From Phascolarctobacterium sp. (lineage in GTDB: Bacteria > Bacillota > Negativicutes > Acidaminococcales > Acidaminococcaceae), in assembly GCA_021201965.1 (NCBI GenBank), contig JAJQDY010000051.1, positions 1 to 35,328 of the forward strand: a stretch of 35,328 nucleotides of DNA, written 5' to 3'. This document shows, piece after piece, positions 9,494-35,180 of the stretch; the stretch's first letter is position 1; each line of letters begins with the position of its first letter. Below the pieces are notes generated by a model, which saw nothing but the letters and a program-made list of their open reading frames with translations, ran no database searches and had not been told where the DNA came from. A program made the position numbers and the translations under genes.

Positions 9494-11080
9494 ATGTATT
9501 TAAAAGACGTTAACGAGATCCTTTTCTGCAATGAAGGCGAAAAGGATATTATGATGGAGCCGAAGATGGCAAACCGCCACTGGCTCATAGCAGGCGCACG
9601 GGCACCGGGAAGACCGTGACCTTAAAGGGCATGGCGGAATCCTTCAGCGAGATTGGGGTTCCGGTATTCCTCGCGGACATTAAGGGAGGCGTTTCGGGAC
9701 TTGCCCAGGCGGTGGTCATGAGTGACGGCTTTCAGAAACGCCTCGACAAGCTCGGGGTCAAGGATTTCAAGCTTGACGCATATCTCGTGTGTTTCTTTGA
9801 CGTTTACGGGAAACACGGCCATCCCGTGCGCACCACCATATCGGAAATAGGCCCGGAACTTCTTGCAAGGCTCCTTGAACTTAACGATACCCAGGCAGTC
9901 GTGCTGCTCATAATTTTCAGGATTGCGGACGACAGCGGGCTCCTGCTCATTGACCTTAAGGACCTCAGGAGCATGGCGCAGTATGTTGGCGACCATGCGG
10001 CGGATTATAAGACCAAATACGGCAACATTGCCGCACAGAGCATCGGCGCAATCCAGCGTGCGCTCCTTAAACTTGAGGACCAGGGCGGCGACATCTTCTT
10101 CGGCGAGCTGGCACTTGACATAAAGGACTGGTTGACCACGGCCCCAGACGGACGCGGCATGATAAACATCCTCCACTGCGTGGAGCTTTTCCAGCAGCCG
10201 CTCCTTTACTCCACATTCCTCCTCTGGATGTTATCCGAGCTTTATAACCTCCTGCTCTAGGCAGGCGACATGGATAAACCGAAAATCATCTTCTTCTTCG
10301 ACGAGGCCCACCTCATCTTTAAGGATGCGCCGAAATCGCTCCTTGACTAGGTTGAGCAGATCGTGCGGCTCATTCGTTCCAAGAGAGCCGGCATCTACTT
10401 CATTACCCAGTCGCCGACGGATGTCCTGGACAACGTCTTAAGCTAGCTGGGCAACAAGGTGCAGCATGCGCTGCGCGCCTATTCCCCGAAGGACCAGAAG
10501 AACCTCAAGGTAACCGCCCAGACATTCAGGCAGGAAGAGGGCTTTAATGCGGAAAAAGTGCTCCACGAGCTCGGGACCGGTGAAGTCATCGTCTCCATGC
10601 TGAGTGATGAGGGCGTGCACCAGATGGCATGCTGCGCTTTCGTAATGCCACCGAGGAGCTTTATGGGCGCCGTTGACGAAAACCTGAGGAACTGGCTTAT
10701 AGCTACGAGCCCGCTCTTTAACAAATACAATACCCACATAGACCGTGAATCGGCTTATGAGGTGCTCCTGGCAAAGGCCAACCAGTGGGGCCGCGCAGCC
10801 CAAGCAAGCGGCAGGCCATGCACCGCAGCAGCAGATGCCCAAGGATTACTACCAGAAGCCCCAGGGCGCCGGCGGCATGGGCGACCTTTTAGGCAGCATC
10901 GCAGGCACCATTTTAAGCGGCGCCATGCAGGGAGGCACTACATCAGGCCATGCGCCGGCACGCGGAGGGCGCCAGCAGAAGACCGTCGTGGACCAGGTGC
11001 GCAACAAGATCATGCACCGCATGAAAACACAGATCTGCAACAGCATCGTGCGTAGCATCTTTGGCTGCCTGAAGAAATAA
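9494..11080 (+). pseudogene. HerA-like ATPase/helicase (DUF853, YjgR family), broken by two frameshifts and three TAG codons
   Basis: ATG 9494 follows AGGAGG, and the product resembles Escherichia coli YjgR over about 529 codons. A base is missing at about 9595-9598, inside the Walker A motif: GA before it, TGTGKTVTLKG after it in the next frame. The frame then runs to about 10800 with in-frame TAG at 10258, 10348 and 10444, and shifts back for the C-terminal tail ending at 11080. Walker B is IIFFFDEAHLIF. The 10444 TAG sits where the family has Gln (VLGQLGN in YjgR); the 10348 TAG lies in SLLD-x-VEQIVRLIRS, where Lys or Gln is usual. With a broken Walker A the ATPase cannot be made without frameshifting. 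Confidence 0.88.
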
Positions 11081-11100
11081 CACAAAGCTTAAAAAAGATA

Positions 11101-11141
11101 TTTAGTCAACCATAGGAAAGTTTACGGTTGACTAAATTTTT
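11101..11141. terminator. Strong hairpin terminator overlapping the next promoter
   Basis: An 11-bp perfect stem, TTTAGTCAACC (11101-11111) with GGTTGACTAAA (11126-11136), followed by TTTTT. An A-rich stretch precedes it, so it could work in both directions. Its 3' arm contains the -35 of the ecf promoter. Confidence 0.85.
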
Positions 11142-11156
11142 AATATTCTATATAAT
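11127..11156 (+). promoter_or_regulatory. Sigma-70 promoter for ecfA1-ecfA2-ecfT-truA
   Basis: TTGACT (11127-11132), 18-bp spacer, TATAAT (11151-11156). The -35 is embedded in the 3' arm of the preceding terminator. Confidence 0.75.
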
Positions 11157-11188
11157 AATGGCATAACTTTATTTTGGGAGGTATGATT

Positions 11189-12013
11189 TTGATATACCTG
11201 GAAAACCTTAAACATGTGTATAAGGATGCGGAAGGCGATGACATAACCGCCCTTGACGAGATAGACCTCCACATAAAAAAGGGGGAATTCGTTGCCATAA
11301 TAGGTGCGAACGGCAGCGGGAAATCGACGCTGGCGCGGCACCTTAATGCGCTGCTTCTGCCGGACGGGGGCAAATGCACCGTTGCAGGGCTGGACACGGC
11401 GGATGAGAAAAACCTCTGGGAGATCCGCCAGCATGTGGGCATGGTCTTCCAGAACCCTGACAACCAGATCGTGGCCTCCATCGTGGAAGAGGACGTGGCC
11501 TTCGGGCCTGAGAACCTCGGCATTGAGGCGGGGGAAATAAGGCGCCGGGTGGATAAGGCGCTTGCCGCCGTTGACATGGCTGATTACGCGAAGCATGCGC
11601 CGCACCTCTTAAGCGGCGGGCAGAAGCAGCGGGTGGCCATTGCGGGGGTGCTTGCCATAGCCCCTGAATGCATTGTGCTGGACGAACCCACCGCCATGCT
11701 GGACCCTAAGGGCAGGCGGGAAATAATAAAGACCGTAAAGAAGCTTAAGGAAGACTACGGCATGACAATAGTCTATATAACCCACAACATGACTGAAGCC
11801 ATGGAAGCGGACAGGGTCATCGTTATGGATAAGGGGAAAATCTCCTTTTCCGGCACGGTTAGGGAAGTCTTCAGCCGCGTGACGGACCTTGAAAAGCTCG
11901 GGCTTGAAGCGCCCCTTGCGGCAAAAATTGCCCTGGAGCTTAGGAAAGCCGGGGCGGGCCTTAAAAAGGACATTATAACGGATGAGGAGCTGGCGGAGGC
12001 ATTATGCCGATAG
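11189..12013 (+). CDS. ecfA1: Energy-coupling factor transporter ATPase EcfA1
   Basis: First ATPase of the shared energy-coupling module that drives vitamin- and metal-specific S components. Walker A is GANGSGKST, Q loop MVFQNPDNQIV, signature LSGGQKQRVAIAG, Walker B CIVLDEPTAML, H loop YITHNMTEA. I choose TTG at 11189 as start because GGGAGGT (11176-11182) is 6 nt upstream and the protein then begins MIYLENL, as in the family; the ATG at 11183 directly abuts the ribosome site. The stop is TAG and overlaps the start of ecfA2. No S component is in the window, so the substrate cannot be told. Confidence 0.92.
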   Translation: MIYLENLKHVYKDAEGDDITALDEIDLHIKKGEFVAIIGANGSGKSTLARHLNALLLPDGGKCTVAGLDTADEKNLWEIRQHVGMVFQNPDNQIVASIVEEDVAFGPENLGIEAGEIRRRVDKALAAVDMADYAKHAPHLLSGGQKQRVAIAGVLAIAPECIVLDEPTAMLDPKGRREIIKTVKKLKEDYGMTIVYITHNMTEAMEADRVIVMDKGKISFSGTVREVFSRVTDLEKLGLEAPLAAKIALELRKAGAGLKKDIITDEELAEALCR

Positions 12014-12861
12014 AACTTAAGAACGTATACCATACATATATGCCTAGAACTGCCTTTGAGCGCTGCGCCTTAAAGAATATTTCCCTGACCCTTAGAAAAG
12101 GCGAGACCGTTGCGGTGATAGGCCCGACGGGAAGCGGGAAATCTACCCTCATGCAGCACCTGAACGGCCTTCTTGCGCCTGATAAGGGCTGCGTCATGGT
12201 AGCAGGGACGGATCTGGCCGCAAAGGGCGATGCGGCGAAAAAGGTGCGGAATTCCGTAGGCATGGTCTTCCAGTACCCGGAGCAGCAGATTTTTTCCGAA
12301 ACGATTTACGACGATATCGCCTTCGGGCCGAAAAACAGGGGGCTTACCCCTGAAGAAACTGACGCATGCGTCAGGGAGGCCATGGCATTCGTGGGCCTTG
12401 ATTTTGACGCCTTTTCAAAACGCGACCCGTTCAGGCTTAGTGGCGGCCAGGTAAGGCGCGTCGCCATAGCAGGGATCATCGCCATGGACCCTGACTACCT
12501 GGTACTTGACGAGCCCTCCGCGGGGCTTGATCCTGCGAGCAAGGAAGCCATTCTTAAGGAAATAATGGAACTCAGGGAGAAAAAGGGCATAGCCATAATC
12601 CTTGTCACCCACAGTATGGAGGAAGCCGCAAGGTATGCGGGGAGGATGCTTGTCATATCGGGCGGTGAGCTCCTTTTTGACGGGGAGCCGGCGGCCATTT
12701 TCAGGGAGCATAAAAAAGAGCTTCTTGAAATCGGCCTTGACGAACCCCAGGTCTTTAAGCTCTCGGGGATCCTCAAAAGTTCAGGCATGGACATCCCTGA
12801 AGGAATCTTAAGCGCAATGGACCTGGTCAAAGAGATTAAAAAGGCAAAGGGGTGGAAATGA
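12004..12861 (+). CDS. ecfA2: Energy-coupling factor transporter ATPase EcfA2
   Basis: Second ECF ATPase, forming a heterodimer with EcfA1. Motifs are GPTGSGKST (Walker A), MVFQYPEQQIF (Q loop), LSGGQVRRVAIAG (signature), YLVLDEPSAGL (Walker B) and LVTHSMEEA (H loop). Length of 285 aa is typical. The ATG overlaps the end of ecfA1 by 10 nt, and its TGA overlaps the ecfT start, so the module is translationally coupled. Confidence 0.93.
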   Translation: MPIELKNVYHTYMPRTAFERCALKNISLTLRKGETVAVIGPTGSGKSTLMQHLNGLLAPDKGCVMVAGTDLAAKGDAAKKVRNSVGMVFQYPEQQIFSETIYDDIAFGPKNRGLTPEETDACVREAMAFVGLDFDAFSKRDPFRLSGGQVRRVAIAGIIAMDPDYLVLDEPSAGLDPASKEAILKEIMELREKKGIAIILVTHSMEEAARYAGRMLVISGGELLFDGEPAAIFREHKKELLEIGLDEPQVFKLSGILKSSGMDIPEGILSAMDLVKEIKKAKGWK

Positions 12862-13664
12862 TGCTGAAAGACATTACCTTGTGGCAGTATTTCCCGGGCG
12901 ACTCCTTTATCTATAAACTGGACCCGAGGACCAAGATCCTTGCAACATTCATCTATATAGTGGCGATATTTTTCGCGTATGATCCCGCATCCTATGCCGT
13001 GCTCATTGCCTTTGCGGCATTCGTTATCGGGGCAAGCCGCCTTCCGATATGGCTTGTGGTAAAATCCTTAAAGCCCGTCTGGCTGATTGCCATAATCACA
13101 CTTTTAGTCCATATGCTGACATTCCCCGGGGAAAACGTCATCTATACCTGGAGCGTTTTTAAGGTGACGGCGGAGGGCCTCGAGACTGGGCTCAAGATGT
13201 GCCTGCGGCTAATCCTGCTCCTCCTTTTTTCTTCGGTGCTGACATTTACAACGTCGCCAATAGTCTTAACGGACGGCATAGAAAGCCTCTTGTGGCCCTT
13301 TAAGAGGATAGGGGTCCCTGCGCACGAAATAGCAATGATGATGACCATAGCCCTGCGCTTTATCCCGACGCTCCTTGAAGAGATGGAGAGGATTATAAAG
13401 GCCCAGACAGCGCGCGGCGCCGATTTTTCGGAAGGGAACTTCCTTAAAAGGCTGAAGGGCATGCTGCCCATCCTGGTACCCCTTTTCGTGAGCGCCTTCA
13501 GACGGGCGGACGAGCTTGCCATTGCCATGGAGGCAAGGTGCTACAGGGGCGGCGAGGGGAGGACTGCCATGCACAGCCTCATCTATAAGGCACGGGATTA
13601 CGCATCCCTTGCCATTGTCATAATCCTTGCGGCGGTGGAGGCCTTTATGAGGTGGGGAGCATGA
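12858..13664 (+). CDS. ecfT: Energy-coupling factor transporter transmembrane protein EcfT
   Basis: Membrane scaffold of the ECF transporter that couples the ATPases to an S component. Several hydrophobic segments are visible (about 25-60, 70-90, 115-135, 245-265), and the two cytoplasmic coupling-helix motifs appear as AQTARGAD and EARCYRGG. Length about 268 aa is normal. I take ATG 12858, which gives the ATGA overlap with ecfA2; ATG 12861 is also possible. The stop overlaps the truA ATG (ATGA). Confidence 0.92.
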   Translation: MMLKDITLWQYFPGDSFIYKLDPRTKILATFIYIVAIFFAYDPASYAVLIAFAAFVIGASRLPIWLVVKSLKPVWLIAIITLLVHMLTFPGENVIYTWSVFKVTAEGLETGLKMCLRLILLLLFSSVLTFTTSPIVLTDGIESLLWPFKRIGVPAHEIAMMMTIALRFIPTLLEEMERIIKAQTARGADFSEGNFLKRLKGMLPILVPLFVSAFRRADELAIAMEARCYRGGEGRTAMHSLIYKARDYASLAIVIILAAVEAFMRWGA

Positions 13665-14419
13665 GGACGGTAAAACTCACTATTTCCTACGACGGGAGCT
13701 CCTACCACGGCTTCCAGAAACAGAAGAATGCGAAAACGGTACAGGAAGTCCTGGAGGATTTTTTAGGCCGCATCTGCGGGAAAAAGATAAACACGACTGG
13801 AAGCGGCAGGACGGACGCCGGGGTGCACGCCTTAAAACAGGTGGTTTCATTCCACACGGAATCAAAGATTCCCTGCAAAAACCTCCTTCGTGCGGCGGAA
13901 AGGATGTTGCCCTCTGATATTGCGCTCCTTGCCGCGGAAGATGAAAGGGAGGGCTTTAATGCGAGGCGCAGCGCCAGGTGGAAGCGCTATGTCTACAGGA
14001 TTATTCCATGTTGCGTGAACGACCCATTCCGCATGAAATACGCATGGTGCATGAAGGAAATGCCGGACATGGCCGCCATGGAAAAAGCGGCGGAATATCT
14101 TTTGGGCGAGCACGATTTTTCCGCCTTCAGGAGCACGGGGAGCACGGAAGGATCCCCGGTAAAGACAATATACGAGGCAAAGTGGGAGGAAAGGCACGGC
14201 AACCTTTTTTTCACCATAAGCGGGAGCGGCTTTTTATACCACATGGCAATGAACCTCGTCTGGTCCATGGTGCAGGTGGGATTTCACGCAAGGACCCCCG
14301 AAGACTTTAAAAAGGAACTTTCCTCAAAGCGCTGCGATTTTTTAAACGAACCCGCTCCCGCCGCAGGGCTCTACCTTGCCGGGGTGTTTTATAAGGAGTA
14401 CCCCGAAGAAGACGGGTAA
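13661..14419 (+). CDS. truA: tRNA pseudouridine(38-40) synthase TruA
   Basis: Converts U38, U39 and U40 of the anticodon arm to pseudouridine. The catalytic aspartate is Asp52 in GSGRTDAGVHA; the N-terminal ISYDGSSYHGFQ and the later GSGFLYHMAMNLVWSMVQVG are family signatures. The last segment is often RN.VR in other TruA proteins; here it is MNLVWSM, a mild variation. Start ATG 13661 overlaps ecfT by ATGA. The ecfA1-ecfA2-ecfT-truA order, followed by rplM-rpsI, is a classic Firmicute arrangement. Confidence 0.94.
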   Translation: MRTVKLTISYDGSSYHGFQKQKNAKTVQEVLEDFLGRICGKKINTTGSGRTDAGVHALKQVVSFHTESKIPCKNLLRAAERMLPSDIALLAAEDEREGFNARRSARWKRYVYRIIPCCVNDPFRMKYAWCMKEMPDMAAMEKAAEYLLGEHDFSAFRSTGSTEGSPVKTIYEAKWEERHGNLFFTISGSGFLYHMAMNLVWSMVQVGFHARTPEDFKKELSSKRCDFLNEPAPAAGLYLAGVFYKEYPEEDG

Positions 14420-14452
14420 GGGTAAAAGCGTAAAATTTTTGACAATTTCCCC

Positions 14453-14481
14453 TTGACTAAAAATATTTATCTGGATATAAT
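14453..14481 (+). promoter_or_regulatory. Sigma-70 promoter for rplM-rpsI
   Basis: TTGACT (14453-14458), exactly 17 bp, TATAAT (14476-14481). A second possible -35, TTGACA at 14439-14444, pairs less well. About 90 nt of leader separates the promoter from rplM. Confidence 0.85.
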
Positions 14482-14572
14482 GTAGGTACGTGATTTTCCG
14501 TATGCTTTCAACAGCCCCGAAAGATGCGGGGAAACGCATTGAATCGTATATTCTTTTGGGAGGAATATAAAA
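14482..14572 (+). promoter_or_regulatory. Putative r-protein leader upstream of rplM
   Basis: Two mutually exclusive stems are visible: CCCCG (14515-14519) with CGGGG (14527-14531), and ATGCG (14524-14528) with CGCAT (14535-14539). L13 leaders are known in Firmicutes as autoregulatory RNA elements; I infer the same role from position and structure. The ribosome site GGGAGG is at 14558-14563. Confidence 0.5.
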
Positions 14573-15010
14573 ATGAAATCATTTATGGCTAACCCGTCCA
14601 ACATTGAGCGCAAATGGTTCATCGTGGACGCGGAGGGTAAGGTCCTCGGACGCATGGCAACGGAAGTCGCAAAGGTCCTGCGCGGCAAGCATAAACCGAC
14701 GTTTACCCCGCACATGGACACTGGCGATTACGTGATTGTAATTAATGCGGACAAGGTCGTGCTGACAGGCAGTAAGCTTGATAAAAAGACTTACTTCCAC
14801 CATACGGGATACCTTGGCGGCGCAAGATACGAGGCCGCGAAGGAGCTCATGAAAAAGCACCCCGTAAGGGTCGTGGAACATGCCATAATGGGCATGCTCC
14901 CGAAAAACAGCCTGGGACACACGATCTACGGCAAACTCCACGTATACGCAGGCAGCGAGCATCCGCACGCAGCCCAGAAACCAGAAGTACTTGAAATGGA
15001 CATGAGATAA
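14573..15010 (+). CDS. rplM: 50S ribosomal protein L13
   Basis: Early-assembly large-subunit protein. The 145-residue product starts [10 protein letters not shown] and contains [30 protein letters not shown] and [12 protein letters not shown], all characteristic of L13. GGGAGG lies 9 nt before ATG 14573. It is followed by rpsI after 19 nt, the standard pair. Confidence 0.97.
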
Positions 15011-15029
15011 TCCAGGAGGGAACAGTTAA

Positions 15030-15422
15030 ATGGCAGCAGTTACATATGACGCTACAGGACGCCGCAAAGCTTCAATTGCCTGCGTACGCCTTATTCCTGG
15101 TGAAGGGAAGATAACTATAAACGACCGCAAGCTGGATCAGTATTTCGGCCTTAAGACGTTGGAACTTATTATAAACCAGCCCCTCGAAGTCACCGAGACC
15201 AAGGGCAAATATGACGTACTTGCCAATGTCTACGGCGGCGGCTTCTCCGGCCAGTCAGGCGCCATCCGCCACGGGATTGCCCGCGCGCTCCTTAAGGTGG
15301 ACATGGACTACCATCCCATACTTAAAAAGGCAGGACTCTTAACTCGTGACCCCCGCAAGAAGGAACGCCGTAAATACGGTCTTAAGAAAGCCCGTAAGGC
15401 GAGCCAGTACTCGAAGCGTTAA
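15030..15422 (+). CDS. rpsI: 30S ribosomal protein S9
   Basis: Small-subunit protein whose C-terminal tail reaches the P site. [14 protein letters not shown] at the N-terminus, [19 protein letters not shown] in the middle and the ending [12 protein letters not shown] identify it. 130 residues, normal. CAGGAGGG precedes the ATG. Confidence 0.97.
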
Positions 15423-15433
15423 TACAAAAAAAG

Positions 15434-15463
15434 AAAACCTGCCTTTTTACGGCGGGTTTTTTT
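15434..15463. terminator. Bidirectional terminator between rpsI and nadE
   Basis: Stem AACCTGCC (15436-15443) with GGCGGGTT (15451-15458, one G-U pair), followed by T to 15463; an A-run before it gives a T-run on the minus strand. It serves the convergent rpsI and nadE transcripts. Confidence 0.85.
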
Positions 15464-15481
15464 ATGCCTTTTTACATATCT

Positions 15482-17374
15482 TTATTTTTTAAGGATCTCC
15501 TTTTTAAGCACCGCGTAATCCCTCGGGAAATAGGGCTCAAGCTGCGCCTCCCTGTGGTCGTAGCCGAAGGCTCTTTTCGTTATGGAAAGTACTGGTGGCG
15601 CCTGGATGCGCTTTGCCACGGAAAAGCCGGCGAAAAGCTTCCACCAGCGTTCAAGGTCCTCTATGAAGTCTTCCGGCCCATTAAATGTTTCCTTAAATGC
15701 CTTTTCGCTGCAGCCAAGTTTTTCTGCGAGGATTCCGTCCCTGTACCAGCGGAGGATTTCCGCGGAGGTGGTCTTGTGCCAGTTTTCGATGAAGGCGCGT
15801 AGGAGATAGTCGTGGTATTCGTAGATGAGGGGGTCGCCGCCTTTCCCCACGGTCTGCTCGGGGGAGAGCTCGGCGCTCGGCCTTATGTTAAAGATTTCTT
15901 CAGGGATTACTTCCCGCCTGAAGATTTTTTCATTTAAATACCTGCCCAAAGCGTAGACCTGGAACTTCCAGATATCGCCAAAAATGGCAAGGACGCCGCA
16001 GATGTCGCCGTAGAACGTGGCGTAGCCTATGGCGATCTCAGCCTTATTGGAATTGCAGGAAAAGGCGCCGCCGAAAGCTGCGGCGGCAGCCGCTATGATG
16101 CGGGCGCCCCGGTCGCGGGCCTGGATGTTTTCCATGATAAGTCCTGAAAGCTTAAGGTTAAAGGTTTTCCCATCTTTTCCCATTACTGGTACTTCGCTAA
16201 GCTGCGCAGCCGTATGGCTGCTGCTTTCCCAGATGGGGATGACGGCGTAATTTGCACTGAGGTTTGCGGCTATTTTTTCAGCAAGGGCTTTCGTTATGTC
16301 TGAATTGTATTCTGACGGCAGGTTCAGAAGGAGCACGTTTTCAGGGCCGAGGATATGGCAGTACATGGCCGCCGCAACGGCGGAATCTATACCGCCTGAG
16401 AGCCCTAAGGTCATCTTTTTTATGCCGCACTGGGCAAGGAATTTTTCCGTCCCGTATTTTAACGATCTGTATACGGATTCAGGCTCCTCAGGGAGCGGCG
16501 CGGGCCCACATTCCGCTTTTATGGCGCGCTTTTTTGCGTCCCACTTTACGGAAAGGAGCGTGTCATCGTAGAGCCCTGCGGAGGTTACCAGTTTTCCCAT
16601 GCCGTCATAGACCGACGTGCAGCCGTCATAGGTAAAGACGTTTTTCCCGTTATTCTGGATGCCTACGTTATTGCAGTAGATGAGGGGGATCCCGGCGTCT
16701 TTTGCCTGCTTGGAAAAAAGCCTGTTGCGCTTTTTGTTTTTCCCTAAGGCGTAAGGCGAGCAGGAAAGGTTAAAGAGGATGTCAGCGCCGTTTGCGGCAA
16801 GGGTCTGTGGTACGTTAAGGTGGTAATTTTTCGTCCAGCCGTCCTCGCAGAGCATGAGGCCTATTTTTACCCTTTCGCCGCAGATGGCAAGTTCAAGGGG
16901 TTTTAAGGCGGATTTTACGGAGGCACCTTCCTCGTAGCAGAGCTTCTGCAGGCTGTAGAAATAGCGGCAGTCGTCAAACTCACGGTAATTGGGGAGGGAA
17001 TTTTTCATGATGAAATCCCGCCCGAGGTACCCCTTTAAAAGTTTTCCGTCCTGCGCAGCAAAGGCGGCGTTATATTTCCTGACGCGCCCGTCCTCGTTAA
17101 GCTTATCCCTTTCAAAGGCCACGCTGCCGAACATGACACAGAGGCCGCCAGATGCGGCGGCGATTTCACGGGCGTAGTAGGCGCAGTCGTCAAGGAAGGC
17201 CTGCTGCTCCCAGACGTCGCCTATAAGGTAGCCAGGTATGCACATTTCCGGGAAGAGGAGGATATTCGCCTTATCTTCCCTCGCCTTTTTTATGATTTCA
17301 AGCATCCTCTTGAAATTTCTGTCCGGGTGCCCAGGAATGACTTCCATCTGGGCACAAGAGATATTGATATACAT
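15482..17374 (-). CDS. nadE: Glutamine-dependent NAD(+) synthase
   Basis: Converts deamido-NAD to NAD using ammonia released from glutamine. The N-terminal nitrilase-like glutaminase domain (about 1-290) has LLFPEMCIPGY (Glu), a Lys region near YLGRDFIMKN and the nucleophile Cys in IGLMLCEDGW. The synthetase domain has the P-loop LGLSGGIDSAVAAAMY and NLPSEYNSD. I choose ATG at 17374 (protein MYINISCAQMEV), preceded by a G-rich ribosome site; an upstream in-frame start would add about 24 residues that do not look like family sequence. About 630 residues, typical of the long form. Divergent from ybaK. Confidence 0.92.
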   Translation of the reverse strand: MYINISCAQMEVIPGHPDRNFKRMLEIIKKAREDKANILLFPEMCIPGYLIGDVWEQQAFLDDCAYYAREIAAASGGLCVMFGSVAFERDKLNEDGRVRKYNAAFAAQDGKLLKGYLGRDFIMKNSLPNYREFDDCRYFYSLQKLCYEEGASVKSALKPLELAICGERVKIGLMLCEDGWTKNYHLNVPQTLAANGADILFNLSCSPYALGKNKKRNRLFSKQAKDAGIPLIYCNNVGIQNNGKNVFTYDGCTSVYDGMGKLVTSAGLYDDTLLSVKWDAKKRAIKAECGPAPLPEEPESVYRSLKYGTEKFLAQCGIKKMTLGLSGGIDSAVAAAMYCHILGPENVLLLNLPSEYNSDITKALAEKIAANLSANYAVIPIWESSSHTAAQLSEVPVMGKDGKTFNLKLSGLIMENIQARDRGARIIAAAAAAFGGAFSCNSNKAEIAIGYATFYGDICGVLAIFGDIWKFQVYALGRYLNEKIFRREVIPEEIFNIRPSAELSPEQTVGKGGDPLIYEYHDYLLRAFIENWHKTTSAEILRWYRDGILAEKLGCSEKAFKETFNGPEDFIEDLERWWKLFAGFSVAKRIQAPPVLSITKRAFGYDHREAQLEPYFPRDYAVLKKEILKK

Positions 17375-17391
17375 TTTCCCGCCTTCCGGAT

Positions 17392-17421: not shown

Positions 17422-17467
17422 AACAGAGCTGGAAGAAAACCGCCACTTTTTAAAGGAGATATTGGCA

Positions 17468-17950: not shown

Positions 17951-17960
17951 TGTTACAAAC

Positions 17961-20131: not shown

Positions 20132-20177
20132 AAAAAATTCCGGAGAAGGAGAAAAAATAGCAAAAAAAGCAGGAAAA

Positions 20178-20208
20178 GGCATGTATAGTGTGTGCATGCC
20201 GCTTTTTT
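20178..20208 (+). terminator. Terminator after the 19.7-kb gene
   Basis: GGCATG (20178-20183) pairs with CATGCC (20195-20200), then GC and a run of six T. Confidence 0.7.
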
Positions 20209-20261
20209 ATAAAACGCCGGGAAAGGGCATGGCAGCGTGTTCTAAGTGGCCAAGTGGAAGT

Positions 20262-20277
20262 GTGCGTTAAAACGCAC
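20262..20277. repeat. Perfect palindrome
   Basis: GTGCGTT-AA-AACGCAC, perfect 7-bp arms. The right arm shares AACGCA with the direct repeats at 20440-20483. Confidence 0.55.
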
Positions 20278-20285
20278 GAAAAAAA

Positions 20286-20303
20286 GGTGGGGTGGGGGGT
20301 GGG
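20286..20303 (+). other. G-rich tract with weak quadruplex potential
   Basis: Runs of 2, 4, 6 and 3 G separated by single T. Two-tier G-quadruplex formation is possible; the strict four-run G3 rule is not met. Confidence 0.3.
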
Positions 20304-20439
20304 ATGCATTTTGGAAAGGCCCGATGCTGAAATTTCCCGCACCACTCAAAGCAAGCGCCCGTGCGGCTTTTAGGGGTGCGGTGATGGCAAAAAAGCGTGT
20401 TTTTTGAAGGAAAAATACACACTATAAAAAAGGGTGTGC

Positions 20440-20483
20440 AAAAACGCATATGTGTGCATAATGAAAAACGCATATGTGTGCAT
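20440..20483 (+). repeat. Two identical 20-bp direct repeats, 24-bp period
   Basis: AAAAACGCATATGTGTGCAT at 20440-20459 and again, identical, at 20464-20483, separated by AATG. T-rich sequence follows. Upstream of the next promoter, so a regulatory-site array is possible. Confidence 0.75.
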
Positions 20484-20556: not shown

Positions 20557-20576
20557 ATATACAGGAGGTGATGAAA

Positions 20577-20822
20577 ATGGTATGGAAAAGGAAACCGGAC
20601 TGCGAATACAAATTCTCAAAGCCCGCCCCCGGAAAGAAGGTATGGTGCGTCCAGGAAATGTATGAAGGCGAGCAGACCGTATAGCCGATGCTCCTCGTAA
20701 GCTTCTACGGGAAGAAAATTTACAACCTTTACGGGGACTACCCTGATAACATGACGCCTGAAGAAGTGGAGATCCTTGATATGGAAAAACCGGGACTGGT
20801 AGAGTTTTTCAAGAAACGCTAG
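20577..20822 (+). pseudogene. Hypothetical protein interrupted by one in-frame TAG
   Basis: A small gene of about 81 codons. AGGAGG (20563-20568) is 8 nt before ATG 20577; an ATG at 20571 is too close. The frame begins MVWKRKPDCEYKF and is stopped by TAG at 20682-20684 in EGEQTV-x-PMLLVSFYGKK, then continues without shift through YNLYGDYPDNMTPEEVE to a TAG at 20820. I accept that last TAG as the true end because the next gene starts 18 nt later. No family recognised. The upstream part alone would be a 35-residue peptide. Confidence 0.55.
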
Positions 20823-20839: not shown

Positions 20840-21208
20840 ATGGGTAAGAGGACTGAAGTGGCGGAAGATTGAAAGGTACTTATCTGGAAAAGTTTTACAA
20901 TGGACCCTGATGACGCCTTATGGTCGGATGAGAAACTGAGCCTTGACGCGGCCCCGTATCTCGGGATCCTTCCCTAGGGCTTCAGGCGGAAGGTAGAGGG
21001 AGAGCGGATCATCTACGAACGCGTGGGAAAGGTTTATACCATACGTCCCCAGGGGAAGCTGTCCCTTTTCATGTACCCTTAGGTGAGGAGCGGAGGCGCT
21101 GAACCAGTGGAGATGGAAGTTGCGGGGCGCCTTGCCTGGCACCCGAAATATGATGACGGACCCTTTTTTGACGGGCCTTTCGGGGAAGTAGTAGAGGATT
21201 ATGATTAA
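20840..21208 (+). pseudogene. Hypothetical protein interrupted by TGA and two TAG
   Basis: Reading frame of 122 codons from ATG 20840, preceded by AAAGGGG, to TAA 21206. Internal stops are TGA 20870 (AED-x-KVLIWKSF), TAG 20975 (LGILP-x-GFRRKVEGE) and TAG 21080 (LSLFMYP-x-VRSGG). No frameshift is needed, and the translated product looks coherent: a compact, mixed charged protein ending in a Gly/Phe-rich FDGPFGEVVEDYD. Gly at the TGA and Gln at both TAG would be natural. I do not recognise the family. Placed right after the 20.6-kb gene, probably one transcript. Confidence 0.5.
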
Positions 21209-21266: not shown

Positions 21267-21268
21267 AT

Positions 21269-21369
21269 AAATAACCATAAAGAGCACGCAAGGGACAGGC
21301 CCTATGACCGTGCAGCAACCTGCCTTATTGGTAAGGTGCTAAAGCCTTGATGATGGGCCATATGGATTT
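21269..21369 (+). promoter_or_regulatory. SAM-I (S-box) riboswitch aptamer
   Basis: Conserved S-box core is readable: AAGGGACAGGCCCTATGA, then CAGCAACC, then AAGGTGCTAAAGCC. P1 pairs 21269-21279 with 21361-21369 (two unpaired A). P2 is GCACG (21284-21288) with CGTGC (21309-21313), with the kink-turn region and GGCCC loop between them. P3 is CCTT (21323-21326) with AAGG (21333-21336). An intrinsic terminator follows directly. S-box RNAs switch off methionine, cysteine and SAM genes when SAM is high; here the downstream gene is not a recognised one of these. Confidence 0.85.
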
Positions 21370-21376: not shown

Positions 21377-21407
21377 GACCCGTCATCGCGATGGGTCTTT
21401 TCTTTAT
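21377..21407 (+). terminator. Riboswitch expression-platform terminator
   Basis: GACCCGTC (21377-21384) pairs with GATGGGTC (21390-21397, one G-U), followed by TTTTCTTTAT. CTGCACGG (21370-21377), just before it, is perfectly complementary to CCGTGCAG (21308-21315) in the aptamer, giving an alternative fold. Confidence 0.85.
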
Positions 21408-21435
21408 GGGCAAAAACATGAAGGAGGGACGGAAA

Positions 21436-21759
21436 ATGCTGATGGAAGTGTATTACGAACACTACATGGAAAACTGCATGGGGAGGTACTGGGAAGAGGA
21501 AAAATACATTCACTATATGGTTAACATCCATGACAAAAATAAGCGGGAAAAGTTCAGGAGGTTCTTTGAGTCTGAGAGCTTTACCTGCGTGGACTGGAAT
21601 CCTGATTACACTGGGGTCCTCGTCAATATTAAGCTGCGCCGTTTTGCGCTTATCTATATGGCCTGCAGGCATTCCTGCGTGGATGAAAGGCCGTATACCC
21701 CGGAGGAATTCATGGATGAAGTATATAACAAGAAAGACGTAATGGAAGGCGGAATCTGA
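21436..21759 (+). CDS. Hypothetical protein under the S-box riboswitch
   Basis: Intact frame of 107 residues. I start at ATG 21436 because AAGGAGG (21421-21427) lies 8 nt upstream and earlier in-frame starts fall in the terminator. The product is rich in Tyr, Glu and Arg, starts MLMEVYYEHYMENC, has five Met in the first 30 residues or so, three Cys, no signal peptide and no membrane segment. No family recognised. As the first gene after a SAM riboswitch it should respond to SAM or methionine supply, which is an unusual position for an unknown small protein. Confidence 0.6.
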   Translation: MLMEVYYEHYMENCMGRYWEEEKYIHYMVNIHDKNKREKFRRFFESESFTCVDWNPDYTGVLVNIKLRRFALIYMACRHSCVDERPYTPEEFMDEVYNKKDVMEGGI

Positions 21760-21838: not shown

Positions 21839-22462
21839 ATGAAATGTCCTAAATGCGGGAGCAGGAAAGTTGCGCCTATAATGTACGGGCTGCCTGCATT
21901 GAGCAAGGACCTGGAAGAGAGACTCAATAACAAAAAATTAGTGCTCGGCGGCTGCTGCGTTTCCGATAACGATCCCAGATACTACTGCTTCGGCTGCGAG
22001 CAGAAGATAGGCTATCCGGCACATTACGGTGACGTGGCATCCGTAAGTTTTTCCAGGGGATAATGGGATCCTGCGCCTGCCAGGGTACTTATGGAAAACA
22101 GCGTCGTCATGGGACCGGTAACGGTATCTGACGCCGTGATCGTGAAATACCGGCGGAAGATGGTTTACCATGAATGGGACAGGGTTTTAAAGAAGCTCTA
22201 CGAAAAATTTTATTTTGCCGAGTGGGAGAAAACCTTGGATGAGCCGGGAGTGGTCGACGGCGAGGAATGGGAACTGGAAGTAGGCCTGAAAAGCGGGAAG
22301 AAAGTGATATTCGTCGGCAGCAACGCCTATCCCCAATACTGGGATGAGCTTAACAAGCTCTTTAAACCATATTTTGAAAGCAGCGATTCACCTGCGGTCC
22401 CTAAACGCTGCGGGAAGAAATACCGGAGGGAGCACCACTACCGGGGACCGGTGATAGAGTAA
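21839..22462 (+). pseudogene. Zinc-ribbon two-domain hypothetical protein split by an in-frame TAA
   Basis: GGAGAG precedes ATG 21839. The N-terminal part has a zinc ribbon, CPKCGSRKVAP near residue 3 and CFGCEQK near 51, with GGCCVSDNDPRYYC between. TAA at 22061-22063 ends the first frame after SFSRG, but the same frame stays open to 22462 and gives WELEVGLKSGKKVIFVGSNAYPQYWDEL. I recall zinc-ribbon proteins from Firmicutes and Bacteroidetes with just this second half (ending WEL...GSNAYP.YW.EL), so both pieces look like one 207-residue protein with a nonsense codon. ATG 22091 could restart the second half. The molecular function of the family is not known to me. Confidence 0.6.
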
Positions 22463-24796: not shown

Positions 24797-25390
24797 ATGG
24801 AGATTTTCGAGCTTAAGAAACCTCATAAGGAAGAAAAGAAAAAGTATAAGATTCATGTGATGTTGCCTGAGCGTACTTTTGTCATAAAGAAGTTACGACA
24901 CGAATATTCGCTTATTGAAAAAGAATATATCGCATCGCTTGATTTCGGTATTGCAACATTGGATACTGCGAAATATAAGCCAATAATATACGATACTAGT
25001 AGTTTAGGAACAGGTGCAGATGAGGAAATTAATACCATTAATGTCGAAATAGAACGAATGAAATATAGCGAATTGACCTTGGTTGGTGAAATATCCCGCC
25101 GCATGAATATCCCCTGTCTTAAAATTTCCAAAATACCAGAAGAATCAGTTGACGAAAAGGACGGCAATAAAGGAACAATTATTAATGCAGTAAATGAATA
25201 TAACGAGATCATTGATGATGTTATTATTTCCAGATTTAAAAACAATGAAGATGAAAATAAACGAAATAAAAGACCTTCTTGGAAGCAATCCCACAACAGA
25301 ACAGCTGGCAGCCTTAGAAAAAGACAAGCGCACGGGCGTGCGGAAGCTCCTTGCCGCCTACCGGAAACGCCTGTAAAAGGAAGCCGTTGA
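24797..25390 (+). CDS. Truncated A+T-rich hypothetical protein fused out of frame onto rnhB
   Basis: Open frame of 197 codons, but only the first 150 or so are plausible protein: MEIFELKKPHKEEKKKYK, then ISRRMNIPCLKISKIPEES and NEYNEIIDDVIISRFK. From about 25245 it reads the rnhB coding sequence in the wrong frame, so the natural C-terminus is missing. There is no good ribosome site at 24797 and the frame is open further upstream, so the N-terminus is also uncertain. Visibly low in G+C and rich in Ile, Asn and Lys, unlike the rest of the window. Faintly like the C-terminal part of restriction-type helicases, but I cannot support that. Likely a transferred remnant. Confidence 0.4.
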   Translation: MEIFELKKPHKEEKKKYKIHVMLPERTFVIKKLRHEYSLIEKEYIASLDFGIATLDTAKYKPIIYDTSSLGTGADEEINTINVEIERMKYSELTLVGEISRRMNIPCLKISKIPEESVDEKDGNKGTIINAVNEYNEIIDDVIISRFKNNEDENKRNKRPSWKQSHNRTAGSLRKRQAHGRAEAPCRLPETPVKGSR

Positions 25391-26108
25391 AAAAGAACGC
25401 CTGGATACCCTCATGCGCTATGAACGCCAGTACTATGCCTACGGCGCAAAATATATAGCGGACGTCGATGAGGTAGGTAGGGGCCCCTTAGCAGGCTCCC
25501 TCGTCGTAGCCGCAGTCATCCTACCGAAGGACGTTTTCATTGAGGGCATAGACGACTCCAAGCAGCTCACGCCCCATAAACGGCAGGTCCTCTACGTGGA
25601 AATAATGGCAAAGGCCATAGACGTGACCGTCAATATCGTAAGCGTGAGCAATATAGATAAGCTCAACATCTACAAGGTCACGCAGGCTGCCATGGAAGAA
25701 GCCATAGCATACCTTAAGTCTGCGCCGAGCGTGGTCTTCATAGACGTCATGCCGCTCCGCGCCAAAACGGCAAAGACCGTCTCCATCGTCCACGGCGATG
25801 CCGTAAGCGCATCCATAGTAGCGAAGGTCACCCGTGACCGGATCATGGAAAAGCTGTAGCTCCTTTACCCCCTCTACGGTTTTGAAAGCAACAAGGGCTA
25901 CGGCCGCAGGAGCTACATGGATGCGATAAAGCAGCACGGCGCATCCCACTGGCACAGGCGGAGCTTTGAGCCCTGCCGCAGCATGGAGCTTACCCCCCAC
26001 GTTGAAGAAAAAGAAAACATCATTTATGCCACGAAAAGGGAAAACTTCGTCTTTGAGCCCAAGGCGGACAAAATCGGCGAAGGCGCCATGGGTGTCATTT
26101 TCCGCTAG
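25245..26108 (+). pseudogene. rnhB: Ribonuclease HII, interrupted by TAA and TAG
   Basis: RNase HII removes ribonucleotides and RNA primers from DNA. A single frame runs from ATG 25245 (or 25251, MKINEIKDLL) to TAG 26106. The N-terminal extension is of the Firmicute type. The catalytic start is DVDEVGRGPLAGS; IDDSKQL, FIDVMP and HGDAVSASIVAKVTRD follow, then YPLYGFESNKGYG and WHRRSF. Internal stops: TAA 25374 (AYRKRL-x-KEAVEKE) and TAG 25857 (DRIMEKL-x-LLYPLYG). GDAVS-ASIVAKV seems to lack about five residues compared with the usual GDAKSLSIAAASI.AKV, so an in-frame deletion is likely. Its start sits at the edge of the A+T-rich segment and its promoter may be lost. Confidence 0.85.
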
Positions 26109-28533: not shown

Positions 28534-28584
28534 TAATAGAAAAACCGGGAAAGGAAAAAACTAAAGGAAACCGGAGGCAAACCC

Positions 28585-30192
28585 ATGAAAATCACATTCT
28601 TAGGCGCGGCAAGGACCGTTACCGGCTCCTGCTACTTCATTGAAACGGGAACGAGGAAAATCCTCGTGGACTGCGGCATGTTCCAGGGATCGAAACTTGT
28701 CAGCGCATTTAACGAAAAGGATTTCGTCTTTTCGCCGGCGGACATTGACGCCGTAGTACTTACCCACGCCCACGTGGACCACAGCGGGCTATTGCCGAAG
28801 CTTGTGAAATACGGTTTCAAGGGCCCCATCCACTGCACGAAATCGACCCAGGAGCTCTGCTCGATCCTCCTCCCGGACAGCGCCCACATCCAGGAAAGCG
28901 ATGCGGAGTTTTCAAACAGGAAGGGGCTCCGTGCAGGAAAAAACCGCGTCGAGCCGCTCTTTACCGTGGACGATGCCTTCATCACGATGAAATATTTCAA
29001 GATCCACTTATTCGACACCGCATTTGAAGTTGTGCCGGGGATTACCGTAACCTTCCGCGTGGCGGGCCACATCCTTGGCAGCGCCTTTGCGGAAATGATC
29101 GTTAAGGAAGGTGAGGAGCATACCCGTCTCGTATTTACTGGGGACATCGGCCAGCCCCATCAGCCCATTATTGAGGACCCTGAAAAAATCTCGGGGGCCG
29201 ATTTCATCATTACGGAATCGACTTACGGGGACCGCCTACACAAGGCGTATGATAAGGAAGGCGAGCTTGCCCAGATCGTAAACGAGACCGTTGAGCGGGG
29301 CGGCAACCTCGTCATCCCGGCCTTTGCCGTCGGGCGTACCCAGGTTCTCCTCTACTATTTCCAGAAACTCACGAAAGCGGGAAAGATCCCCGAGATTCCC
29401 ATTATAGTCGACAGCCCCATGGCGAACAAGGCGACGAAGATAACCATGACGAACCAGTCGGAATATGACGAGGACGCGCGGGCGCTTTATGAAATGCAGG
29501 GGCAGCGCCTCGTTGACATGAGGAACCTCCACTTTACGGCAACCCCGGAGCAGTCGCGTGCAATAAACGGCATGACGGGAAGCAGCATCATCATTTCCGC
29601 AAGCGGCATGGCTGATGCGGGGAGGATCCTCCACCACTTAAAGCACAACCTCTGGCGGGAGGAGAGCAGCGTCCTTTTCGCAGGCTACCTTGCTGAAGGC
29701 TGCCTGGGCAGGAGGATCGTCGAAGGGGCAAAGACGGTAAAAATAATGGGCGAAGACATTAAGGTAAACGCCCACATCTATAACATGCGGGGCTGTTCCG
29801 CCCATGCGGATTACGAGCAGCTTCTTGACTGGTACGGGAAGATGAGCGTCCAGCCGAAGGCCTTTTTCGTGACCCACGGGGAGATAGGCGCCTCGACCCA
29901 CCTTGCGGGAGAGCTCCAGAAGAGGCTCGGCACAGCAAGCTACATCCCCCAGTTCGGCGACTGCGTCGAGATTGAAGGGGATACATGGAAGGTAATTGAG
30001 AGCACGCTCGTCGAGGCATCGCCTGCTGCGCTTGAACTCCGCGATTACATCATCGATATGGAAAAGAAATACGGCGCCTACAAGACGAGAATCGAGCAGA
30101 TCGTGGCAAGGGACGATACCCGCGCCAGTGCCATCATGAAAAAGCTCAACAAGCTCAAAAAATACATGGACGACATCCTGGGCGACCTGTAA
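28585..30192 (+). CDS. MBL-fold beta-CASP metallo-hydrolase (putative RNA exonuclease)
   Basis: Metallo-beta-lactamase fold with beta-CASP insert, as in RNA-processing nucleases of the CPSF/Ysh1 type. Motif 2 is THAHVDHSG (His61, His63, Asp65, His66), motif 3 includes RVAGHILGSAF, motif 4 VFTGDIG. The beta-CASP part has GGNLVIPAFAVGRTQ, SASGMADAGRILHH, SCSAHADY-like GCSAHADYEQLLDW, and THGE at the end. 535 residues. GGAGG lies 8-12 nt before ATG. Substrate is inferred from family only. Terminated by the hairpin at 30232. Confidence 0.9.
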   Translation: MKITFLGAARTVTGSCYFIETGTRKILVDCGMFQGSKLVSAFNEKDFVFSPADIDAVVLTHAHVDHSGLLPKLVKYGFKGPIHCTKSTQELCSILLPDSAHIQESDAEFSNRKGLRAGKNRVEPLFTVDDAFITMKYFKIHLFDTAFEVVPGITVTFRVAGHILGSAFAEMIVKEGEEHTRLVFTGDIGQPHQPIIEDPEKISGADFIITESTYGDRLHKAYDKEGELAQIVNETVERGGNLVIPAFAVGRTQVLLYYFQKLTKAGKIPEIPIIVDSPMANKATKITMTNQSEYDEDARALYEMQGQRLVDMRNLHFTATPEQSRAINGMTGSSIIISASGMADAGRILHHLKHNLWREESSVLFAGYLAEGCLGRRIVEGAKTVKIMGEDIKVNAHIYNMRGCSAHADYEQLLDWYGKMSVQPKAFFVTHGEIGASTHLAGELQKRLGTASYIPQFGDCVEIEGDTWKVIESTLVEASPAALELRDYIIDMEKKYGAYKTRIEQIVARDDTRASAIMKKLNKLKKYMDDILGDL

Positions 30193-30231
30193 AAGGTGCG
30201 CGTAGGGGCGGTTTTACGGGATATTTAAGAA

Positions 30232-30266
30232 GACAGCCTCCTTTATTAAGGGGGGCTGCCTTTTTT
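30232..30266 (+). terminator. Terminator before the autotransporter
   Basis: CAGCCTCC pairs with GGGGGGCTG around TTTATTAA (G-U pairs), followed by six T. Related in sequence to the hairpin at 35197. Confidence 0.8.
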
Positions 30267-30301
30267 GCATTAAATATTTTTAAAAACTCGCTTAAAAATC
30301 C

Positions 30302-30330
30302 TTGTCTTGAAAATCTTTCCGTATTATGAT
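30302..30330 (+). promoter_or_regulatory. Promoter of the autotransporter gene
   Basis: TTGTCT (30302-30307), 17 bp, TATGAT (30325-30330). AAGGAGA at 30370-30376 is 19 nt before ATG 30396, longer than usual. Confidence 0.6.
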
Positions 30331-30395
30331 ATAAATGGGAAGTGTTATGTATGATTATTTAAATATTTTAAGGAGAACATTAAAGTGGTAAAAAA

Positions 30396-33300
30396 ATGAA
30401 ACTTACGAAGAAAAAGACGGAAATGATCCTCCTCACGCTGGCCCTATGCGGATATTTTGCTGCGCGGTGTGAGGCCAATGCTTATGATCCCGGGGCCCGA
30501 TACTGCAATCAGGGCGAGTATGTGGGCGTAATAGCAGATGAGACCATCACAAAAGACTTTTAGCACGATATATATGATATGTCCTACGCTTTTATAAACA
30601 CCACGAAAAAGAAGGCTGCAAGTGCAGGAGGCATAATTGACGGTATTTATAACTGCGAATTTCTTGACAATAAGGCCAATGGGGAGAGGAAATGGAAGCT
30701 CGTCTAGGGTGCGGCTCTCGTTAACGAAGAGGGCTGCAGCATAGGCTACATTGAAAATTGCAAATTCACGAATAACAATGCCAATGTGTGGCAGTCTACA
30801 GTAGGCAATGTTGCTCTTGTTAATTATGTAGGCGCATACGGCGCTGCCATCTATAACGAAGGCACTATCGGCAATATCACTGGAACTTCCTTCAGCGGTA
30901 ACGAATCCGACGCGGGGAGCCTTTTCCAGGGCAGTGCGTACGCCGGCGCCATCTATAACAGTAACAGTATTGGAAACATAGAAAACTGTGCGTTTGATGC
31001 TAACATTGCCGATGCCTGCGGGATTTTTAGAGGAACCTGCGCGGGCGGCGCCATCTATAACAAAGGAACCATTACCACACTTGACAGCCTGATTACGGTA
31101 AACACTGCCGAAAAAGGCGGCGGCGTCTATAACGAAGGGAAAATATGAAGCATTACCGCCACCTTTGCGGAAAATTCCGCCGGGGAGGGCGGCACCATCT
31201 ATAATACGGGAACCATAGAAAGCATTACGGGTGAATTCAGCGGCAGCACGGCAGGGGCCAGTGGCGGCGTTATAAATAACAACGCAGATGCCAGTGGTAT
31301 TTATGCGGAAATCAAGGAAATTTCCGCCGATTTCACGGGCAACAGTGCAGGACGGAGCGGCGGCGCCATTACCAATATGGCGACGGCGGCAACCAGTGCT
31401 CTTGAGGCGGGTACTGCCAAAATAGTTGACATTGTCGGCAGCTTTACGGAAAACTATGCAAAAGCCGCCGCCGGCAGTTCAAGCGGCCTGGTCGATGGCG
31501 GCGCCATCTTAAACAGGGCCTTTGATGGGACCGCGGAAATTGAGAATATAACCGGCTATTTCACAAATAGCTATGTACAGCTGACGGGCGGGACCGGAAG
31601 CATCTACAACAGCATGGCCTACGGCGGCTCCATCTATAACGCTGCGGAGAATGCGTCCGAGTCTTACGCAATAATAGACAGCATCACGGGCATTTTTCCC
31701 GGCAACCATGCCGATGCGGAAAACGGAGCTGCCGGAGGCGGCGCCATCTTTAACGGCACAACCAGCAGCACGAACTAAGCCATAATAGGCGACATTACTG
31801 GCAATTTTGCGGCAAACTACGCGCAGTCGGATGAGTCCTATGCATGGGGCGGCGCCATCTATAACGGAGGCGCGCTGTCAGCAGACGGGAAAGCAGAAAT
31901 AGGTGACATCGAGGGCAGCTTTACCGGAAACTATGCGGAAGCAGGCACGGGAGATGCCTGGGGAGGCGCAATATATAATAATACAAATCAGGAAACACAC
32001 TTTACCATCACTTCCATTACGGGAAACCATGCCGCATCAGAAGGAGGCAGTGCCTACAGCGGCGGACTTGTCAATACGCCAAGCGCGTCACGCAGCAGCA
32101 GCGTCAGCGTCACGGGCGACATAGAGGATAACTATGCGGAAGCGACAGTAAACGCCTGGGGAGGCGTAATATATAATAACAGTACCGGCACGCTTACGGT
32201 CAATGCGGATTCACTTACCGGCAACTACGCGAAAGTAGGCACGGGCTATGCCGTAGGCGGCGGCATCTACGACGGAGAATCGAACAATACCATTACCGTA
32301 ACGGGTGATGTTACGGAGAACTACGCCTAAAGTGAAAGCAGCTATGCCGTAGGCGGCGCCATTGGCGTCGTGGGCGAAAGCAGCATTATCGTGGCAGATG
32401 TTTCCGGAAACCATGCGGAAGGCGTAGCGAGGGCCTATGGCGGCGCCATCTATAACGCGGGAACCATAACGGGCGGTGAAGAAGGAGAACTTGTTGTCGG
32501 CAATCTTATAGGCAACTACGTCATAGGCGCAACGGAGGCCAATGGCGGCGCAATTTACGACACCGTAAGCACAAAGGTTGCCATAGACGGCGATGCCTCG
32601 GGCAACTATGTCAAAGTAACTGACAATAGTGACGTGGCAGGCGGCGTAATTTATCTTAAAAAGATTGAGGAAGGCGAAGGGACCACCATTACCGTGAGCG
32701 GCAATGTCACGGAAAGCCATGCGGGAACGGCAGGCGGCAGCGCCTATGGCGGAGCCTTCTATACGGGTAAGTACGATGAGGAAAACTACGATACCGTAAC
32801 CATAAGCGGGGAGATCATTTCCGGCAACTACGTCAGCGCCATGGAAAATGCCTTAGGCGGAGCAATCTGCAACGAAGGCGTCCTTAATATAGAAGAGGGC
32901 GTGGACCTCATCGGCAATTATACCGTATCAACGGAGGGTGCAGCAGTAGGCGGCGCCATCTTTGATACCATCAGTACGGAAGTCCATATCACGGGCGATG
33001 CGTCGGATAACTATGTGAAGACCTTGGAAGGCGATGTCTACGGAGGCGTAATTTACCTTACCCAAGCGGCAGAAGCTTCAACCGTCATTACCGCCAGGGG
33101 AGACGTTTCGGGCAACCATACGGAAACGGAAAACGGCAGTGCCTATGGCGGAGTGTTCTACACTGATGAGGATGACATCGTCGTCATTGATTGTGACATT
33201 TCGTGGAACTTGGTTAAGGCAAGCGGCGACTTCATGGGCGGCGCAGTCTATAACGCAGGCTCCCTTACCCTTGAAGATGGCGTAAACCTTTCCGGTAACT

Positions 33301-35180
33301 ACGCAAAAGGAGCGGAAGCTGCGACGGGTGGAGCCATTGCCGCCATGGACAGCAGCAGTATCACAATATCGTGGAGAGTCACGGGCAATTACGCGGAAAG
33401 CAGTGACGGCGATGCGGCAGGAGGAGCAATTTCTCTTGCTGACGGCAGCCTTACAATAGAGGGCGACGTAACTGGCAACTATGCGGAAGGTGCGGGCACG
33501 GTCATGGGCGGCGCCATCGTCAATATGGGCGAACTTATCGTAACGGGCAGCATCACGGATAACCGTGCCGAAGGCGAAGAAGCAGCAGGCGGCGCCATCT
33601 ACAACGCCGGCATCATGAACATAATTGCGGACAGTGGCCTCCTTTCCATCAGCGGCAATACGGCAGTAAGCGGCGGCGCTGCGGAAGACAATGCCATCTA
33701 CAGTGACAGGTGGAGCGAAATAAACATCACCCTTTCAGGAATCGGCGAAGTGCTCATGAATGACAGCATTGACGGCGAGGACTACACCGTAACCGTGACG
33801 AGCGAAGATGCGGGCAGCAATATCCTCTACATCTATAACGATATGAACAATGCCGACCTTATCATGGGCAGTATTACGTTAAATACCATAAATAACGAGG
33901 TCCACACCTATGCGATTAAATCATTCAGCCTCAGCGGCGACGTGAACATGGTTGCCGACGTGGACCTGGCAAATGAAACTATGGACAGGATCACGGCCAA
34001 AAGCTACGGCGAGCATGCGGGTACGATCAACATATCCGGAATGAACCTCATCAGCGACACGTCAAAGAGCAGTGTGGAAATAGCCTTTGCGGAAGACGGG
34101 CTTAAGGATTACGTAACGTCATTGGTGGGGACGCTGTCTGACAGCAATAACCAGCAGAAGGCCTACACGCCCCTCTACCAGTACGACTTAAGCTACGACG
34201 ACCGGGATGACGTTGGATACTTCGCCTTTGACAAGGTGGAGAACAACCCTGCGGCCCTGACGTCCCAGGCATCCCAGATGGGACTTTACAATGCTGCCTC
34301 CATGATGTATAACTACGCTTTCGAACACTCGGAATATTACATCCGGCTGCCGAAGGGCGAGCGGCTTAACGCAGAGGGTGAAGAAGGCGGAATATATAGG
34401 AACAACGAACTTACGGAGCAGGGAGTATGGGCAAGGCTCTTCTCCTCCTTTGAGACGGTACCCTTCAAGGGGAACATGACGCTGAAGGCCAAATACTACG
34501 GCGTCCTGGTAGGAGTGGACAGTGCCGTGAAGGACTACGGCAAATGGGCAGGAGTTTTAACGGGATATGTGGGCTATGACGGCATCTATCAGAAGTTTGA
34601 AGGAAACAGCATCAGTCAGAACGGCGGCATAGCAGGAGTTACGGGAACGCTCTATAACAGAAACTTTTATGTTGCGGCAACGGTGGCAGGAGGATGGACA
34701 ACCGCCAAGATCCGCACGATGTACGGATATGAGAACACTCATCTCTACAACTACGGCATTGCGGCAAAGGCAGGATACAACCTGGAGTTCAGAAACGGGA
34801 AATATTCCTTCCTGCCGACGTTCATGGCATCCTACACGAATGTCGGAGCGGATGACTACACGAATGCCGCAGGGTTAAGGATTGACACGAAGGCCATGCA
34901 TGCCTTCCAGCTGAACCCGAACGTTAAGCTGGTAAGGAACCTTGGTAGCGGCTGGCAGCCGTATATTACGATAGGCGAAATATGGACGGTAGGTCAGAGC
35001 ATGGGAGGTACCGCAGACGGGACATCCATCAGCTAGCTGCACATGAGGCCCTTCACGGAATACGGCATAGGCGTGCAGAAACGCATGCAAGGCTCAGGCG
35101 ACGGCTACTCGCAGATCCTGGGACACGCAGGCGGCCGGCGCAGCGCACTCTTTAACCTGGGCTTCCGCTGGAGCTTCTAA
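30396..35180 (+). pseudogene. Autotransporter adhesin-like protein with six in-frame stop codons
   Basis: One frame of 1594 codons with no frameshift. Residues 1-30 form a signal peptide (MILLTLALCGYFA then an AxA-like site). Residues about 150-1070 are a passenger of about 29 imperfect repeats of 33 residues with GGAIYN-type cores and I.G.F.GNYAE, which should fold as a beta-helix. Residues about 1340-1594 are the outer-membrane beta-barrel, starting WARLFSSFE and ending NLGFRWSF with terminal Phe. Internal stops: TAG 30561, TAG 30705, TGA 31146, TAA 31776, TAA 32328, TAG 35034. The longest open piece (32370-35036) has no signal peptide and lacks the last 48 codons, so no functional product is expected without suppression. 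Confidence 0.88.
30838..33606 (+). repeat. Passenger repeat array, about 29 units of ~99 bp
   Basis: Units are marked by GGAIYN, GGVIYN, GGAIFN and similar, each followed or preceded by GNYAE and an I..ITG strand. Spacing averages about 98-99 bp, judged by eye. Units have diverged considerably, so this is an old amplification. Confidence 0.75.

Follow-up and report, generated by a model that had tools for sequence, protein, structure and literature searches.

Sixteen in-frame stop codons on one contig of a small bacterial genome very probably mark ordinary pseudogenes

We analysed a window of 35,328 nucleotides (one entire contig of a draft genome of 1.375 Mb in 92 contigs, 96% complete) and conclude that the sixteen in-frame stop codons in six of its genes very probably mark ordinary pseudogenes of a small, eroding genome. 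The residues facing these stops in homologues are mixed, the genes for decoding are standard and more interrupted genes lie elsewhere in the genome. All sixteen stops (10 TAG, 4 TAA and 2 TGA) were found at the coordinates and in the contexts given for them by a first-pass annotation, whose title miscounted the affected genes as five reading frames. The six genes are:

9494..11080, + strand, DUF853 / HerA_C (YjgR-type) probable pseudogene; PF05872, 574 bits; stops at 10258, 10348 and 10444
20571..20822, + strand, DUF7675 gene; stop at 20682; PF24723 downstream of the stop, E 7.9e-16
20840..21208, + strand, small gene of no known family; stops at 20870, 20975 and 21080; codon score 22.7, other five frames -1.2 or below
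21839..22462, + strand, gene labelled zinc ribbon; stop at 22061; codon score 21.7, other frames -2.3 or below
25251..26108, + strand, rnhB (ribonuclease HII) probable pseudogene; stops at 25374 and 25857; NF000594, E 1.5e-48 between the stops
30396..35180, + strand, autotransporter-like repeat protein, probable pseudogene; stops at 30561, 30705, 31146, 31776, 32328 and 35034

By codon usage, the frame listed for each gene outscored the other five frames of its region, which indicates that the interrupted frames are coding relics. The frame of the autotransporter-like gene (30402-35176) holds 6 stops in 1591 codons, and each of the remaining five has 19 to 94. The small gene at 20840-21208 has 122 codons, for which three stops are unremarkable on their own (other frames: 1 to 11) and a search of 299 other genomes of the class gave no match, so that it is the codon score which points to a gene here. 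The gene at 21839-22462 had partial matches in six of 299 other genomes of the class, none of them across the stop; its zinc-ribbon label is that of the first-pass annotation and is backed by no library match. Three other DUF7675 copies are present in the source genome, and one of them was likewise listed with a TAG. A TAG in the DUF7675 gene of genome G013 was considered as a conserved stop and rejected, as it falls where the match ends and appears to be that gene's own terminator. The autotransporter-like gene matched nothing in Pfam (at 1e-3) or NCBIfam, and its putative name reflects its repeats and its terminal F; a single-sequence structure model of its barrel-like part reached a mean pLDDT of 31, too low for use.

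Six sites in the window could be resolved with homologues (10258, 10348, 10444, 25374, 25857 and 35034), and 32328, 31146, 31776 and 30705 were compared only with repeats inside the same gene. Among eight relatives of the DUF853 gene, 10258 faces E in all eight, 10348 faces K in seven and R in one, and 10444 faces Q in all eight, as had been proposed. In rnhB, the residues in the second copy of the source genome, in genome G022 and at locus L047 are E, A and E at 25374 and A, A and D at 25857. At 35034 three paralogues carry E, E and D. Glutamine is therefore found at one of the six resolved sites, and the claim that many of the stops fall on expected glutamine positions was not borne out. Six contexts had been singled out as reading well with glutamine, of which only 10444 holds; 35034, 32328 and 30705 face mostly other residues. 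The comparison of 32328 with NYAQSDESYA in the same gene is correct, but the 14 other repeat copies found by motif search carry E (five), K (five) and D, A, I and S (one each). At 30705 (WKLV-x-GAALVN), the sole other GAA repeat found by motif search has Y. Twelve other repeats carry G (five), E and T (two each) and K, D and V (one each) at 31146, and four carry Y (two), K and T (one each) at 31776.

From the homologue residues, a one-base step to the stop is possible at five of the six resolved sites (E, K, Q, E and E), and none of the residues A, A and D at 25857 is one base from TAG. The proposed recent decay of CAG and CAA codons can thus be kept as decay, but not as decay mainly of glutamine codons, as Glu, Lys, Gln, Ala and Asp face the resolved sites. 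We also predicted the nonsense spectrum from codon usage. At a transition bias of 2-4, the expected shares were.41-.45 for TAG,.39-.34 for TAA and.21 for TGA; at a bias of 1 to 8, the TAG share was.38 to.51, with 7 to 31% from Gln codons. The probability of at least 10 TAG among 16 stops was 0.04 to 0.25 overall (0.04 at bias 1; 0.07-0.12 at bias 2-4), which makes the TAG excess slight at most.

A suppressor tRNA had been put forward as one explanation, and our checks did not support it. The prfA gene (RF1) is intact (530 bits versus a cut-off of 423, 361 aa, no stop), and so is prfB (RF2), with one TGA inside. The single TGA in prfB is accounted for by the programmed frameshift of this gene. 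ARAGORN assigned a type to all 49 tRNA matches, and none of these 49 has a CUA, UUA or UCA anticodon in an assembly that is 96% complete and whose tRNA set is incomplete, since tRNA-Ala and tRNA-Ile(GAU) are missing from the list. The best tRNA-Sec candidate (42.8 bits) fell below the 47-bit cut-off and coincides with a tRNA-Ser. As the first-pass annotation had stated, intact genes of the window end in TAG (5312-6088 and the genes it named murB, ecfA1 and the ACT gene); so do 87 of the 396 genes predicted in 411 kb sampled from the genome. Judging from these sequences, TAG, TAA and TGA all still terminate translation. The contig also carries what we take to be housekeeping genes, such as murB and those for ribosomal proteins, going partly by the annotation's names.

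Interrupted genes were also found outside the window. In gene pairs with genome G022, internal stops remained after review in 4 of 103 source-genome genes and in 0 of 99 in the reverse comparison. The raw counts had been 7 and 2: two of the source-genome cases were query extensions ahead of the probable start, a third was a frame outscored by the opposite strand, and the stops dropped from G022 (query residues 24 of 654 and 21 of 273) likewise lie ahead of the probable start. The four genes kept were a sodium:alanine symporter (three stops), FtsH, RsgA and a gene that we presume to be phosphatase-like. A copy of an FAD-linked oxidase and a branched-chain amino acid permease are likewise broken. 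FtsH (L127:7335) and RsgA (L183:13844) each have their in-frame TAG late in the gene, which in RsgA removes no more than about the last 20 residues; such late stops would not be expected from the decay of dispensable genes alone.

Thirteen sites outside the window had a usable homologue, and they face E (four), S (two), G (two), K (one), W (one) and, in at least one homologue, Gln (three). This tally omits L131:774, 1472, 1872 and 2645, L133:9377, L139:1145, 1868 and 13130, the other sites at L127, L134 and L138, the sites at L130, L129 and L140, and L183:384 and 690, L184:3100 and L185:6673, which on inspection by eye seemed weak, antisense, upstream of starts or part of repeats; L131:1436, at 33% identity, stayed in. 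These comparisons supersede a first tblastn census, which antisense frames had overwhelmed. Scanning for internal stops by codon usage gave 15 sites in 356 kb here and 18 in 370 kb of G022 and did not separate the two genomes; the scan is underpowered, as it caught only 2 of the 16 window sites.

We suggest that selection lapsed on six dispensable or redundant genes. The rnhB gene would be redundant, as a second, uninterrupted copy lies on another contig (C8). The DUF853 gene would be accessory, as PF05872 was absent from 18 of the 26 other genomes searched and has a single match in the source genome. The autotransporter-like gene would belong to a surface-protein-like family found only in the source genome: its C-terminal part has three paralogues there (contigs C2, C29 and C72), all three of them interrupted, and no relative of this part was found in 26 other genomes. 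Single-base changes would then have converted codons of several different amino acids into stops; rnhB would also have suffered a deletion and the DUF853 gene its frame changes, and the function of the protein has probably been lost in all six cases.

The three stops of the DUF853 gene are all TAG and lie inside the PF05872 match, and a three-frame reading revealed two frame changes, one near 9590 and one between about 10780 and 10850. Seven of the eight relatives with a match were listed without an internal stop, and the eighth (G003) has one TAA. The first-pass annotation had held that five of the six genes carry no frameshift; by eye we saw none in these five frames, but the window rnhB lacks five residues (SASIVAKV versus SASIAAASVIAKV in the uninterrupted copy) from a stretch that we take to be conserved in the ribonuclease HII family. 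The window rnhB lies near DUF711, as in G022, which also has an uninterrupted rnhB. The uninterrupted copy on C8 is flanked on one side by an ISL3 transposase and on the other by what is presumably the reading frame of a type I restriction subunit. The transposase (L148:2522-3500) is itself interrupted.

These sequences show only faint signs of lost constraint, so that the pseudogenes would be young. The DUF853 gene of the window alters 19 of 168 positions that are invariant among its relatives, and more distant relatives reach 26 of 194. Relative to G022, 43% of codons (109/254) change the residue in the window rnhB and 35% (96/272) in the uninterrupted copy, with differences still mostly at third codon positions. 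Uninterrupted homologues exist for the interrupted DUF853 and rnhB genes; the paralogues of the autotransporter-like gene are all broken.

The source is a 92-contig draft, and stops were found in FtsH and RsgA as well, as might be expected if base-calling or consensus errors had created the stops. Several observations argue against such errors. Random scatter of the stops by gene length would hit a mean of 11.6 genes, but they occupy 6 of 33 [P(6 or fewer)=0.00015]; this clustering argues against evenly spread sequencing error. Moreover, the paralogues of the autotransporter-like family are broken together, one rnhB copy is broken and the other is not, and internal stops are absent from all 14 window genes that were paired with genes of G022. 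We therefore regard base-calling or consensus error as an unlikely source of the stops.

Belinky and co-workers argue that many bacterial genes with in-frame stops are not pseudogenes (PMC7918605), and genes with several stops together with frame changes or deletions, as here, are poor candidates for the case made there. By analogy with that proposal (PMC7918605), leaky readthrough might still yield functional proteins from the interrupted genes, and the constraint in DUF853 and rnhB is indeed not visibly gone. With three or six stops in a gene, and as many as three kinds of stop, the losses would compound; the two frame changes in DUF853 would stand in the way as well, as would the gap in rnhB, which falls in a stretch taken to be conserved in its family. 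We consider readthrough to functional protein very unlikely. An equally slim chance is given to a weaker form, in which some multi-stop genes yield low amounts of full-length protein and the broken surface-protein family is dimmed rather than dead. A general reading of TAG and TAA as glutamine, via reassignment or a suppressor tRNA-Gln, fits position 10444 and three of the 13 outside sites, but is almost certainly wrong in view of the single Gln among the six resolved sites, which by itself largely refutes it, the lack of a suppressor among the 49 tRNAs, the intact prfA, the many sampled genes that end in TAG, and the TGA stops found in two of the same six interrupted genes.

Genome size ranged from 1.3 to 2.5 Mb in the 18 genomes at least 95% complete among 24 of the same genus and family, and one of these 18 was smaller than 1.6 Mb; the source genome has ~1.38 Mb. 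The closest relatives of its DUF711 protein were in genomes of the same family (82% identity), and the nearest named records, including two Phascolarctobacterium MAGs and one Acidaminococcaceae MAG, reached 78-83%. By this comparison, the source genome appears akin to Phascolarctobacterium. The end of the window (35276-35328) carries a repeat of ~50-55 bases that is common to the ends of 5 or 7 sampled contigs, which points to multi-copy elements as the cause of breaks in the assembly. A stretch of ~300 bases 5' of the DUF7675 gene (20162-20459) recurs at L130:7461-7747 and L139:15552-15839 with 76-77% identity, and an Rfam search of the window stretch gave no match. A SAM riboswitch (S-box leader; 21272-21368, 57.1 bits) lies directly 5' of a gene of 122 aa (21391-21759) that belongs to no assigned family and sits among the decaying small genes. 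This riboswitch may have been left behind when a methionine gene was lost.

Our findings remove a possible claim of a change in the genetic code. They also show that a few well-chosen contexts can hint at glutamine where relatives disagree. Gene loss, which extends to an entire repeat-rich protein family, seems to be under way in a small lineage near Phascolarctobacterium, and this lineage may help the study of early genome erosion.

In Code 15, described for crAss-like phages, TAG encodes Gln (PMC9523058). The present locus resembles that account in its in-frame TAG codons within otherwise coding frames; unlike in Code 15 as described there, the residues are mixed, no suppressor tRNA turned up, genes here still end in TAG, and the sequence is a bacterial contig that carries housekeeping genes. 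Closer is the situation noted by Shulgina and Eddy, in which pseudogene stops mimic codon reassignment (PMC8629427). Here too single-base pseudogene stops mimic reassignment and a suppressor tRNA was not found; the passage in question concerns yeasts, whereas our case is a bacterium. A further comparison is offered by Sodalis glossinidius, which is recently host-restricted and reportedly has almost 50% of its genes disabled (PMC7067036). The extent is far lower here, with about 4 of 103 genes paired with G022 broken. As in Sodalis, disabled genes lie beside intact neighbours, and the source genome likewise combines a size that is small for its family with contig-end repeats and an ISL3 transposase.
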